NCBI GenBank assembly: GCA_913056235.1
Contig: CAJXMW010000003.1
Location: 372,001-436,000 of the forward strand
Direction of reading: 5' to 3'
DNA: 64,000 bases
Origin: an uncultured Fodinibius sp.
GTDB lineage: Bacteria; Bacteroidota; Rhodothermia; Balneolales; Balneolaceae
Below, piece by piece: positions 46,601-52,600 of this stretch. The notes beneath the pieces were generated by a model that did no database searches, was not told where the DNA came from, and worked only from the letters and a program-made list of their open reading frames with translations. Positions within the stretch are counted from its first letter, which is position 1. Every line of letters begins with the position of its first letter. Both the position numbers and the translations under genes were made by a program.

Positions 46601-46617
46601 CCATTTTTTAAAAATGG
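46601..46617. repeat. 17-base palindrome over a candidate start codon
   Basis: CCATTTTT and AAAAATGG are perfectly complementary around a single T, and the ATG at 46614 lies inside the right arm. A weaker GCACT/AGTGC pair lies just upstream. It could be an operator, a weak terminator after the TerC operon, or a structure that hides the first ATG. Confidence 0.5.
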
Positions 46618-47630
46618 ACCGCACTGTCAATGACAAAATGAGACATATGAATATCACTAAGGCAGGATATCACGGTATTCTTCTCCCTGATCTCAACATC
46701 GGCTTTGATTATAGCGGCACCGGCACCCAGCACACATTTATTTCGCACGCGCATGCCGATCACATGCCACGCAGTCAAAGCAGCAGTGTCTATTGCACGC
46801 CAAATACCTATAAGTTGATGAAACGCCGTGGTTTCAACGGTGAAGCAATAACGCTCGACTTTGGCGAACCCTTGGAAACCGACGAGGCTCGAATCACCCT
46901 TTATCCCGCGGGACATATTCTTGGCTCAGCCATGGTATTTGTAGAAAGTGACGAGGGATCGGTGCTTTACACAGGCGACTACCGGACGCCGCCATCGCCC
47001 GCCTCAGAGGGATTTGAAATTCCCGAGCAAGCCGACCATTTCATTACCGAAGCCACCTTTGGGCTACCCATTTACAAATGGGACTCCCACGACAAACTTT
47101 CCCAGGAAGTGCGTGATTTTGCCTCACAGACCCTTGCTAATGATTATACTCCCGTTTTTCTGGCTTACAATTTGGGGAAGGCGCAAGAGGTGATGCACAT
47201 GCTGGCCCCGCTGGGACATCCGGTACAAATTCACGGTGCCGGCTACAAAATGTGTGATGTCTATGAGCAGGCGGGCATCGATCTGGGCAATTATGATTCG
47301 TACAACCGCGAAACCTGCGAAGGCAATATCCTGATTACTACCACTTCGGCCATCAACAACGGTTTTGCCTCCAACGTCAGCAAGAAACGCATCGCCTACT
47401 GCTCAGGCTGGGCTACGCGGGAGGCATCGCGCACGCAACTGACGGCACACAAACTGATTCCGCTTTCGGATCACCTCGATTTCTTTGAACTCATTCGACT
47501 ATGCCAAGAACTGGATCCCGAGATGGTACACATCACCCATACGCCCAACGCCGATGTCGTTCGGCATTACCTGGATCAACGCGATATCAACTCTACATTT
47601 TTAGATATGGAAGTTGAAGAAGATGATTAA
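46614..47630 (+). CDS. Ligase-associated MBL-fold DNA exonuclease
   Basis: 338 residues of the metallo-beta-lactamase/beta-CASP fold: metal motif SHAHADH, YPAGHILGSAMVFVE, VLYTGDYR, an Asp/Glu-containing FITEATFGLP, and beta-CASP histidines near the end (LSDHLDF, HITHTPNADV). It matches the exonuclease that is usually paired with bacterial ATP-dependent DNA ligases, and such a ligase gene follows. In-frame ATGs at 46638 and 46647 (MNITKAGYHG) are equally good starts; the one at 46614 sits inside a palindrome. Presumed role: processing DNA ends before ligation. Confidence 0.88.
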   Translation: MDRTVNDKMRHMNITKAGYHGILLPDLNIGFDYSGTGTQHTFISHAHADHMPRSQSSSVYCTPNTYKLMKRRGFNGEAITLDFGEPLETDEARITLYPAGHILGSAMVFVESDEGSVLYTGDYRTPPSPASEGFEIPEQADHFITEATFGLPIYKWDSHDKLSQEVRDFASQTLANDYTPVFLAYNLGKAQEVMHMLAPLGHPVQIHGAGYKMCDVYEQAGIDLGNYDSYNRETCEGNILITTTSAINNGFASNVSKKRIAYCSGWATREASRTQLTAHKLIPLSDHLDFFELIRLCQELDPEMVHITHTPNADVVRHYLDQRDINSTFLDMEVEEDD

Positions 47631-47767: not shown

Positions 47768-49477
47768 ATGTCTGATAAATTTCAACAACTGGCTGAGACG
47801 GCGCAACAGATCAACGAAACACGCAGCACGAATTCAAAGATTACAATTTGTGCGGATTATTTTAGTGCTATTGGAAAGGATGAAGACCTAAACCGGGCCG
47901 CTCAGTTCCTGGGCGAAGGCGCTTTCTCGTCGGTCTCGGGCAAGCGAGCCTCGGTAGGCAGTCGTACCTATTCTACCTGTGCGGCTGAATTCTGTGAGAT
48001 CGATTACGAAAAAGTATTCAAGCCCTGCAAAACCGCACTTGGCAGCTCATCCGAGGCCATAGAACAGCTGATGAACAACATTGAAGTTGCCTGCCAAAAA
48101 CGAGAGCCCGCGCAGCTTTCCCTGGAAAAAATTGAGGAAACATACCAACAATTATATCGCGCTTCCGGTCGCGCCGACAAGCAGGAGATCCTACGCGAAA
48201 CGTGGAAACAGATGACCCCGGTAGAAATCAAGTATTTCATCCGGATTATGACGCAGGGTTCCCTGCGCATCGGCTTTGAAACGCGGAGTGTTGTGTCTGC
48301 CATCGCTGAAGCTTTTGACAAAGAAGTTGACGATGTGCGCTATGCTCACATGATCACCGGCAGCGTGGGACGTACGGCCGTACTCTGTAAAAACGACAAC
48401 CTCGACAAAGCCAGCTTTAACCTGTTTCATCCGCTCTCGTTTATGCTGGCCTCCCCCATCGAAAATCGAGCAGTAGAAGATCTCGATGAATATGTTGCGG
48501 AAGAAAAGTTTGATGGAATGCGTGCCCAGGCACACATCAGCGGACAACAGGTAGAGCTTTATTCCCGGGAACTCAATGAAATCACACACTCATTCCCGGA
48601 AATCCAACAATTTTTCCTTAAGCGTGACCTGCCGAATTTAGTACTTGATGGAGAAATTTGTGTCTATAAAGAGGATGAAATACTGCCCTTCCAGCTGCTT
48701 CAAAAACGAATGGGCCGCAAAAAGCCGAGCAAAGAGATCATAGAAAAATATCCGGTCCTTTTTGTCTCGTATGATCTCCTGTATCACGATGATCGCCCTA
48801 TTTTCGATCATACCCTTTCCAAACGTCGAGAACTATTAGTAGAGCTATCTCAGCAGCATAGTTTGCCGATCACCAACCAGTTTGAGGTATCAGATCACGA
48901 CCACGTGGATGAGCTATTCGAGCGGGCGCTTGCCCACGGCAACGAGGGACTGATGCTAAAGAAAAAAGGAAGTACCTACGAATACGGACAGCGCCGAAAG
49001 TCGTGGCTCAAGGTCAAAAAGCCCGGCGGCACGCTCGATACCATCCTGATGTATGCCCACGCGGGCAGCGGAAAACGCGGCGGCTACTACTCGGATTTCA
49101 CCCTGGGCATCAGCGTAAAAGAAGATGAGCGCTATGAAGAGGAATTCATTCCCATTGGCAAAGCGTATGGCGGTTACACCGACGAAGAGATGAAGCGACT
49201 CAACGAGCGCATCAAGGATTTAACCGTTGAGAAATATGGTCCCACACTGGGGCTTATTCCTGAAATTGTCATAGAGCTCGAGTTTGACGATATCCAAGTC
49301 AACAAGCGCACCAAGGCCAACTATACGCTTCGACTACCACGCTTTAAGGCCATCCGTTGGGATTTGGGTCCCAAAGACACCGACACGCTCAAAGATGTGG
49401 AACGGATGTACCAAGAAAAGATCGATCGGGATCGGTTAAAACAAAAAGAAAACCCCTCATTCGTATTTCACCAATGA
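47768..49477 (+). CDS. ATP-dependent DNA ligase
   Basis: 569 residues. An N-terminal helical DNA-binding domain (~1-215) is followed by the adenylation domain with motif I E246-K247-F-D-G, where K247 takes AMP. Then come VLDGEICVYK (motif III), GNEGLMLKKKGSTYEYG (motif IV), WLKVKK (motif V) and the OB-fold domain. It is longer than the LigC/LigD type and resembles LigB-type enzymes. With the upstream exonuclease it forms the ligase-associated pair; the DEXH helicase and PdeM phosphatase often linked to them are absent here. The stop codon lies inside a hairpin. Confidence 0.92.
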   Translation: MSDKFQQLAETAQQINETRSTNSKITICADYFSAIGKDEDLNRAAQFLGEGAFSSVSGKRASVGSRTYSTCAAEFCEIDYEKVFKPCKTALGSSSEAIEQLMNNIEVACQKREPAQLSLEKIEETYQQLYRASGRADKQEILRETWKQMTPVEIKYFIRIMTQGSLRIGFETRSVVSAIAEAFDKEVDDVRYAHMITGSVGRTAVLCKNDNLDKASFNLFHPLSFMLASPIENRAVEDLDEYVAEEKFDGMRAQAHISGQQVELYSRELNEITHSFPEIQQFFLKRDLPNLVLDGEICVYKEDEILPFQLLQKRMGRKKPSKEIIEKYPVLFVSYDLLYHDDRPIFDHTLSKRRELLVELSQQHSLPITNQFEVSDHDHVDELFERALAHGNEGLMLKKKGSTYEYGQRRKSWLKVKKPGGTLDTILMYAHAGSGKRGGYYSDFTLGISVKEDERYEEEFIPIGKAYGGYTDEEMKRLNERIKDLTVEKYGPTLGLIPEIVIELEFDDIQVNKRTKANYTLRLPRFKAIRWDLGPKDTDTLKDVERMYQEKIDRDRLKQKENPSFVFHQ

Positions 49478-50314: not shown

Positions 50315-51271
50315 ATGAGCAGCTGGACCTTAAAATCTACTCCTCCCCACGACTGGTTTCTGTGTCTCGACATTGATCAATATTTTGACCATGAACACGA
50401 TCCCGAAACTGTTTTTGAAGATGGATTTCGACGCCCCATCCCCGTAGGCGATCGCGATGTCATCGTTACCTCTTTCTTTAATGGGGATCCCGACAACCCG
50501 GAGTTTCATTTCGAAAGTGCTGAAGCGCTCAGCAAGGAAGAGATCGAAGAAGCCAACAAAAGCTTGAGTCGCATCTTCGCCACTGACCTGGATCTGCGTC
50601 CCCTTTACGAGAAGGCTGCAGACGATCCGGTGCTCGGCCCAAAGCTGACTGAGCTGTATGGACTCAAGCGCATGGCCCGGGCAAATCTGTTTGAAGATAC
50701 CGTTAACCGTATAATAGAAATGCGCCTCTCACATAAGCCGACGGCCAAGAAAATGGTTTACAAGGTACGTGAAAACTATGGTTCCCGCGTCACCGCCAAT
50801 GGAGATTCTTTGCCAGCCTGGCCGCGCCCCCATCAACTGGTCAAAGCAAACCCGATGAGCATTCGAAAACTTGAACCGGGACCTACCAAACGGAAAGGCG
50901 AATTTATTATCGGCTTTGCTGAGGATCTGCTCTCGGGCGAACAGGATTTGGAGCATCTAGAAAACTGTCCACCGGAAGAATTTTACGAAACCATCAAAAA
51001 GGTCCGGGGCGTTGGTCCCACCTCGGCCCAGCAGCTGATGCTCTTTCGCAATCGGACCGATGCCAGCTTTCCCAGCAATAAATCATCCGGCAAAGAAAAG
51101 GGACTGCGAAAGTGGATTATCATGAGCTATGGCGGGGATCCCGATAACATTGCCGAAGATGATTTCCAGGAGATGATATCAAGTTGGGAGGGCTACGAGG
51201 CCGCGGGACTCGAATTCCTGTTTGTGGATTGGGTACTCAGCGAAAAAGAGAAACAACAGCATAATAGCTAA
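50315..51271 (+). CDS. HhH-GPD superfamily DNA glycosylase, AlkA-like
   Basis: 318 residues from the ATG at 50315 (MSSWTLKSTPPHDWFLC); the frame extends to 50225 with unlikely sequence. The N-terminal domain resembles AlkA (FLCLDIDQYFDHE). The middle LFEDTVNRIIEMRLSHKPTA matches the helix before the HhH. The helix-hairpin-helix is VRGVGPTSAQQLML (230-243). Where AlkA has FLPDD with the catalytic Asp, this protein reads SFPSN followed by a six-residue KSSGKE insertion. So it is either a catalytically altered glycosylase or one whose Asp is elsewhere. A decayed copy of its 3' end lies at 52373-52480. Confidence 0.8.
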   Translation: MSSWTLKSTPPHDWFLCLDIDQYFDHEHDPETVFEDGFRRPIPVGDRDVIVTSFFNGDPDNPEFHFESAEALSKEEIEEANKSLSRIFATDLDLRPLYEKAADDPVLGPKLTELYGLKRMARANLFEDTVNRIIEMRLSHKPTAKKMVYKVRENYGSRVTANGDSLPAWPRPHQLVKANPMSIRKLEPGPTKRKGEFIIGFAEDLLSGEQDLEHLENCPPEEFYETIKKVRGVGPTSAQQLMLFRNRTDASFPSNKSSGKEKGLRKWIIMSYGGDPDNIAEDDFQEMISSWEGYEAAGLEFLFVDWVLSEKEKQQHNS

Positions 51272-51297: not shown

Positions 51298-52278
51298 TCA
51301 GTTCTCCTGTAAACTCTGCTTTTCAACCCCCTCAAAAGTAATTTGGACCGGTTCTATATGTCCGTTTTCATCAAACGTCATCTTATCGATACTGGTTACT
51401 CGATGATTGGGATCCGTTTCACCAAGTGGCCGGCGGTGATAAACAATGTACCAGTCGTCTTTCTTCGGTGCTTTTATTATTGAATGATGACCCGCGCCGG
51501 TGGCTACCGAAGAATCCTGCTCTAACACTACACCAATTCGATCAAAAGGTCCCTGGGGCGAATCAGCTATGGCGTAGGCGACGCGATAATTTGGACCGCC
51601 CCAACCGCCTTCCGACCACATGAAATAATATTTATCATTCCTCGTAAACATAAATGATCCTTCTACATACCCATCTGGTGTGATTTCTTTAAATACCGTT
51701 CCATCTTCGAAGGGATCAAAACCGGTAAAATCATCGTTGAGCTTCGTAATATTGCAGTGGCCCCATCCGCCATAAATCATGTAATACTGGCCATCTTCAT
51801 CTTGGAACACAAACTGATCGATAGGCTGGGCACCATTATGGAATTTACTCAACAACGGTTCTCCCAAATAATCTTTATACGGCCCACCGGGATTGTCAGA
51901 AACCCCAATGCCAATACCTCCCATCTGCTCATCCTTCTGGATATCATTAGCGGCAAAAAAGAGAAAATACTTGCCATCTTTTTCGATGATCGATGGGGCC
52001 CACATCGCGCTGTCGGCCCAGGCTACGGAAGCAGTGTCAATAACTTGCTCATGCTTGGTCCAGTTTACCAAATCCGGAGACGAAAACGCATCCATCTTAA
52101 CTTGCTCCTTGTATGGAGCTGAAAAAGTAGGGAAAACCCAATACTGATCTCCAAATACTGCCCCCTCGGGATCTGCATACCAGCCTTCAAATACCGGGTT
52201 ACCCGCCTTTTGCACCTCTTGCGCCGACAGTGTTCCTGCAAATAACAGTGCTACGGCAATGAAAACAGCTTTCTTCAT
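51298..52278 (-). CDS. Glycoside hydrolase family 43-like protein
   Basis: 326 residues from the ATG at 52278 (signal peptide MKKAVFIAVALLFAGTLSAQ). The five-bladed propeller has the GH43 triad: base D36 in EGWYADPEG, pKa-modulating Asp in the APSI region (DSAMWAPSIIEKDGKYFL) and the acid Glu in DGYVEGSFMF. The C-terminal HHSIIKAPKKDDWYIVYHRRP is typical. GH43 enzymes cut alpha-L-arabinofuranosides and beta-xylosides, so a plant or algal glycan is likely. It lies next to the symporter/GH20 cluster; upstream is the decayed glycosylase piece. Confidence 0.88.
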   Translation of the reverse strand: MKKAVFIAVALLFAGTLSAQEVQKAGNPVFEGWYADPEGAVFGDQYWVFPTFSAPYKEQVKMDAFSSPDLVNWTKHEQVIDTASVAWADSAMWAPSIIEKDGKYFLFFAANDIQKDEQMGGIGIGVSDNPGGPYKDYLGEPLLSKFHNGAQPIDQFVFQDEDGQYYMIYGGWGHCNITKLNDDFTGFDPFEDGTVFKEITPDGYVEGSFMFTRNDKYYFMWSEGGWGGPNYRVAYAIADSPQGPFDRIGVVLEQDSSVATGAGHHSIIKAPKKDDWYIVYHRRPLGETDPNHRVTSIDKMTFDENGHIEPVQITFEGVEKQSLQEN

Positions 52279-52372
52279 AATCCCCATATCAAAAAAGTTT
52301 CGAGTTGAACGTGAAAGAAAATCCAAATTCTTCTTAATTATAGCAACTCTGGAAAGCTATCAGCGAAGATAA

Positions 52373-52480
52373 GATGACTTTAAGGCAATGATCAACAATT
52401 GGGACAGATACGAGGTAGCCACACTGGAGTTTCTATTTGCGGACTGGTCTCAGCGAAAAGGAAAAGCAACAAAAAATTAG
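52373..52480 (+). pseudogene. Decayed duplicate of the 3' end of the HhH-GPD glycosylase gene
   Basis: Translation gives DDFKAMINNWDRYEVATLEFLFADW, against DDFQEMISSWEGYEAAGLEFLFVDW of the glycosylase at residues 282-306. At the DNA level the similarity goes on through the next 25 bases (cagcgaaaa-gaaaa-caaca) if one base is deleted, so it ends in a different frame at TAG. Upstream, two extra bases break the frame just before DDF. Only about 36 codons survive. It lies 1.1 kb from the parent on the same strand, on the other side of the GH43 gene. Confidence 0.82.
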
Positions 52481-52600
52481 TTCAATACTCATCCAAATGC
52501 TGGATTTGAAGTCGGATGAGTAGATAACAGCTGACAATTCATCAGACGACAAAACCAGTCGTCAGATGAAGATTCCAATAAAAGAAATACTTAACCATCT

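Follow-up and report, generated by a model that had tools for sequence, protein, structure and literature searches.

An order-wide Balneolales subfamily of AlkA-fold proteins that most likely carries an invariant glutamate, behind a hairpin insertion, in place of the catalytic aspartate

The 318-residue protein encoded at 50315..51271 (+) of the window, by which we denote the whole 64,000-nucleotide stretch of DNA analysed here, is probably a monofunctional-type glycosylase of the AlkA/OGG1 fold, belonging to a Balneolales subfamily in which the catalytic Asp has given way to a Glu, E261, situated behind a hairpin insertion. What was described in an earlier note on this DNA as replacement of the catalytic Asp by Asn most likely dissolves, judging from the alignments, into an Asp-to-Glu replacement displaced by that insertion. 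The HhH-GPD Asp is treated as a hallmark, and motif-based annotation would label the entire Balneolales family as dead; should Glu work naturally in this position, the definition of the HhH-GPD motif broadens.

The ATG-started open frame (VRGVGPTSAQQL...ASFPSNKSSGKEKGLRKWII) is a real gene with order-wide homologues, and its N-terminus, MSSWTLKS, is common to the whole family in the alignment of relatives. It was matched in 56 of 58 near genomes, the match in one genome (G054) being a short fragment. In a class-wide sample, strong matches were found in 66 of the 71 genomes of the same order and in 0 of the other 74, of which 21 gave weak partial matches (best 2.0e-10). Named loci holding the gene are labelled mostly Balneolaceae, Balneolales, Fodinibius, Gracilimonas or Rhodohalobacter, the nearest named match being that of F. 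halophilus (84%), which makes Fodinibius the most likely source of the window. Among 61 aligned sequences 52 columns are invariant, and among five close relatives dN is 0.10–0.16, given here alone and not as a dN/dS ratio because synonymous sites are saturated; together these values argue for strong purifying selection on the protein. The fragment remaining in G054 comprises 42 residues (G054:C110:4275-4400, L109) and may reflect loss of the gene from that genome. Another genome, G032, holds two copies of equal score (G032:C6:18513-19451 and G032:C13:152644-153582). One family of the order (L097–L102) carries an insertion of varied length and sequence after approximately residue 207. A mobile or viral origin was also considered and rejected, as the viral_contigs search gave 44 pattern matches and 0 confirmed relatives, and the plasmid collection two weak matches only, at about 25–27% identity.

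Structure prediction and sequence comparison both bear out the initial description of the protein as AlkA-like. An AlphaFold2 model built on a 61-row alignment reached a mean pLDDT of 93.7 and a pTM of 0.90, and Foldseek placed A. fulgidus AlkA, E. coli AlkA and OGG1 in its top ranks. Superposition by VIA gave Z 25.5 for E. coli AlkA (3ogd, rmsd 2.8 over 275 residues, covering model residues 1–309), Z 23.9 over 283 residues for A. fulgidus AlkA (2jhj), and Z of about 21–22 for OGG1, the AlkA/OGG1 fold thus spanning the whole length of the model. At the sequence level the best phmmer match was C. acetobutylicum Ogg (1.6e-7), with A. fulgidus AlkA at 1.9e-7. Scores for the AlkA equivalog NF007641 (32.7 bits, curated cut-off 229) and for OGG1 TIGR00588 (22.4 bits, curated cut-off 397.85) fall below their thresholds; Pfam PF00730 did not match the protein at E 10, and matched 22 of 61 aligned relatives at E <= 0.01, weakly (best 2.8e-4). 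In the phylogenetic tree the family forms one clade whose long stem measures 1.71 changes per column (support 100/99), the placement of its sister having support of 57/25. Essentially restricted to the order and scoring under the curated thresholds for known families, this single long-stem clade supports the assignment of a distinct and strongly conserved Balneolales subfamily of AlkA repair enzymes, and the suggestion of a new subfamily is thereby upheld.

The HhH hairpin (residues 232–240, GVGPTSAQQ; 51008..51034, +) is preserved, the two glycines of its GxG motif, G232 and G234, being invariant in 90/90 covering sequences. Position 236, which aligns with AlkA W218 and which we take to be the catalytic Lys position of OGG1 and lyase-type enzymes, is Thr in 87/89 and Ser in 2/89. 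The OGG1-type Lys is thus absent throughout (Thr/Ser in 89/89), and AP-lyase activity would not be expected. Further along, the sequence SFPSN followed by an insertion is present in the protein as first described. The insertion, placed there by both MAFFT and hhalign, starts right after N255 (codon 51077..51079, +) and is five to six residues long; here it comprises K256–K260 (51080..51094, +), is predicted to form a tight beta-hairpin, and has no counterpart in the canonical AlkA enzymes used for comparison. It is followed by E261 (codon 51095..51097, +). DSSP analysis of the AlphaFold2 model assigned hairpin strands at 256–257 and 260–261, and a helix from G263.

The residue named as catalytic in AlkA is D238 (PMC7051996, PMC12785776). 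When the family was aligned by MAFFT with E. coli AlkA plus 14 further glycosylases, E261 fell on D238 and N255 on D237, and the E261 column contained Asp or Glu in 15/15 outgroup rows; in an earlier MAFFT alignment that did not include E. coli AlkA, 10 of 12 outgroups had their catalytic Asp/Glu in line with E261, and the remaining two (L156, L157) were gapped at this column. The family reads E-K-G-L-R where canonical enzymes have D-x-G-L-x, the K-G-L-R after E261 matching T-G-L-Q and G-S-F-R of other enzymes. Across the family, whose alignment has 92 rows, position 261 is Glu in all 89 covering sequences, and this Glu stands at the column of the conserved Asp that follows the G/P loop in HhH-GPD members. 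Position 255 is variable in the same 89 sequences (N 68, H 7, S 3, R 3, T 2, E 2, K 2, V 1, Q 1).

Profile alignments show that this assignment depends on where the gap is set. Aligning the family by hhalign with f21, a protein family found in four genomes, paired E261 with the f21 Asp; against ten AlkA-like proteins, K262-G-L-R was set on T-G-L-Q, with their Asp opposite K256, immediately before the gap. These runs differ in gap position only, so that the pairing of E261 with Asp hangs on gap placement. A truncated model (residues 90–272) had a poor last helix, with a pLDDT of 38 in its last block, and its structural alignments ended at scattered residues, so it was set aside as telling nothing about the residue register. 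On balance, an Asp-to-Glu substitution plus an insertion is most likely the best reading of the site. The anticipation that a nearby acid might substitute for the missing Asp proved correct in kind, E261 being such an acid, but not for the residue singled out, since D249 is acidic in 84/89 sequences (78 D, 6 E), is not invariant, and comes before the insertion, towards the HhH.

Compared with its closest known relatives, the family shares with E. coli and A. fulgidus AlkA the whole-length fold, the HhH hairpin and an acid at the D238 column, but differs from these enzymes in having Glu for Asp and a five-residue insertion before it, at about 20% identity. The likeness to OGG1 and bacterial Ogg is one of fold and, for C. 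acetobutylicum Ogg, also of sequence, whereas T236 at the HhH nucleophile position and Glu in place of Asp268 set the family apart from OGG1. Glu at the catalytic column is unusual: among 30 AlkA-like proteins from this phylum, four of which are also in the query alignment, the residue is Asp in 30/30. Family f21 (L149–L152), an AlkA/OGG-like family from the same phylum and, beyond the order, the top profile match (3.0e-28), resembles the Balneolales family in having Glu at this column in two of its four members, and differs from it in having Asp in the other two and no insertion. Its candidacy as a sister clade is unsupported in the tree (57/25), and the common Glu is therefore not claimed as shared ancestry; given the poorly supported sister and the long stem, Glu may have been acquired on more than one occasion.

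Two precedents bear on whether Glu could serve in this position. As summarized in a review of the human enzyme, hOGG1 mutants D268E and D268Q stay active and D268N loses activity (PMC4207560); activity of D268E would make Glu a workable substitute, and that of D268Q indicates that a carboxylate, or its charge, is not strictly required. The crenarchaeal Sis-HhH-GPD of Saccharolobus islandicus, which also has cysteines potentially coordinating an Fe-S cluster loop, is, like the Balneolales protein, an HhH-GPD protein that departs from the canonical Asp, and according to its report it can do without Ser152 at the Asp column but not without Glu134 (PMC11754123). A missing Asp alone thus does not mean a dead enzyme, although a dispensable Ser in that enzyme differs from the invariant Glu of the Balneolales family. 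Our limited literature search brought up no description of a naturally occurring Glu at this position, a point that may nevertheless already be published, and a search pairing Balneolaceae with DNA glycosylase returned nothing.

The substrate pocket diverges from that of AlkA. Using an AlkA residue list taken from PMC12785776, the alignment replaces F18 by Y23, R22 by E27, V128 by H140, W218 by T236, Y222 by D/Q240 and Y239 by K262, and sets W272 against position 303, which is mostly F or Y. Of these AlkA pocket residues W218, Y222, Y239 and R22 are lost in the family, while Y23, E27 and H140 are invariant in its alignment, as are E295 and E300. The pocket looks rebuilt yet still constrained, and its new invariant residues argue for a different substrate and against decay. 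The same genome also encodes TAG, AAG, two Fpg/Nei-type genes and two PF00730 proteins whose sizes suggest Nth and MutY; the commonest lesions would thus already be covered by other enzymes.

A catalytic role for E261 is favoured because this residue is invariant while N255 varies, and because the prediction yields the complete AlkA fold with high confidence. Against it stand the DSSP helix, which starts at G263, two residues past E261, the loss of the AlkA pocket residues, and the presence of other glycosylases in the genome. An unlikely alternative, but one deserving attention, is a non-catalytic binder of damaged DNA or abasic sites, in which the fold would serve to recognise damaged DNA, to sculpt it and to bring in the exonuclease and ligase, with E261 in a structural role as a helix cap or in a salt bridge with R265/K262. 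Loss of the AlkA pocket aromatics and of the HhH Lys/Trp would suit such a protein, as would the handling of common lesions by the genome's other glycosylases, and the HhH part draws high-ranking matches to entries for Mag2, whose titles speak of a DNA glycosylase homolog sculpting abasic-site DNA. However, an acid kept invariant at the exact catalytic column exceeds the need of a helix cap, the more so as the flanking N255 column drifts, and the new invariant pocket residues point to a ligand.

A glycosylase working by other chemistry, with catalysis by E27, H140, E295, E300 or K262 of the rebuilt pocket, appears improbable. Invariance of E27, H140, E295 and E300 is consistent with it, and the activity of Sis-HhH-GPD through another Glu offers a model (PMC11754123), but the Asp column of that enzyme, as reported, holds a dispensable Ser where the Balneolales family has an invariant Glu, and the position of its catalytic Glu is here occupied by T236. 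The view of the earlier note, that N255 is in the catalytic position and its Asn should cripple cleavage, is very hard to sustain, since the phmmer alignment that sets N255 on the FPVD Asp of C. acetobutylicum Ogg is local, stops where the insertion begins and so does not cross it, whereas MAFFT and hhalign place an insertion precisely there, leaving the Asn in a variable, non-catalytic column opposite D237 (a residue other than Asn in 21/89) and the invariant Glu in the Asp column.

If E261 is indeed the catalytic residue, DNA would be bound through the HhH and the damaged nucleotide flipped into the rebuilt pocket. There E261, lying close to the N-terminus of the helix following the HhH and displaced in sequence by the hairpin insertion that makes the catalytic site look empty, would stabilise the positively charged sugar during cleavage of the N-glycosidic bond, and the resulting abasic site might be handed to the adjoining exonuclease/ligase pathway. 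Were this true, the family would allow the charge stabilisation proposed for the OGG1 Asp to be tested on a naturally occurring variant.

The genomic setting is compatible with such a hand-off. Upstream of the gene lie an MBL-fold exonuclease (46614..47630, +; TIGR04122 as best match with 226.5 bits, cut-off 325) and an ATP-dependent DNA ligase (47768..49477, +; PRK09247 and TIGR04120 as best NCBIfam matches, neither reaching its curated cut-off), and a ligase-associated helicase (TIGR04121, 1141 bits, above cut-off) is found 2.8 kb past the end of the window and in 28/58 relatives. Linkage to the ligase was counted in the 58 near genomes, taking ligase matches at E <= 1e-60. Both genes are present in 47 of these, on different contigs in 16, and in all 31 same-contig pairs the ligase is upstream on the same strand. 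The distance is <=12 kb in 28 of the 47 genomes (<=200 bp in 8), and 23 kb, 119 kb and 1.5 Mb in the three remaining pairs. Co-occurrence is not strict, as 8 genomes have the gene and no ligase match at this threshold. Linkage to the ligase and exonuclease is thus real but loose, and from it we infer a common functional pathway.

An operon of Lhr helicase, MBL-fold nuclease, phosphodiesterase and LigB ligase has been described (PMC10140301), and it is resembled here in that the ligase and MBL exonuclease genes adjoin the AlkA-fold gene. It differs in that the operon as described there is presented without a glycosylase, and the association seen here is loose. According to that 2023 paper the damage targeted by the Exo-Lig-Lhr cluster is not currently known, and a gene located beside the ligase and exonuclease offers a handle on this question. 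A bolder and rather doubtful proposal, which we put forward only tentatively, is that the order-wide lineage, with its Asp replaced by an invariant Glu and its pocket rebuilt (Y23, E27, H140, T236, K262, E300), might act on a lesion beyond those of TAG, AAG and the Fpg-type, Nth and MutY-type enzymes, and so supply the missing lesion-recognition step of this cluster.

On its other side the gene is followed, at 52371-52481 (+), by a decayed and frameshifted second copy of its own 3' end, corresponding to approximately residues 280–318 and 73% identical over 104 aligned bases. Between gene and remnant lies another gene (51298-52326, −), whose product is presumably a family-43-type glycoside hydrolase. 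A similar remnant occurs in a further genome, G120, about 1.2 kb downstream of its copy of the gene and with a different gene between, which suggests repeated insertions at the gene's 3' end.
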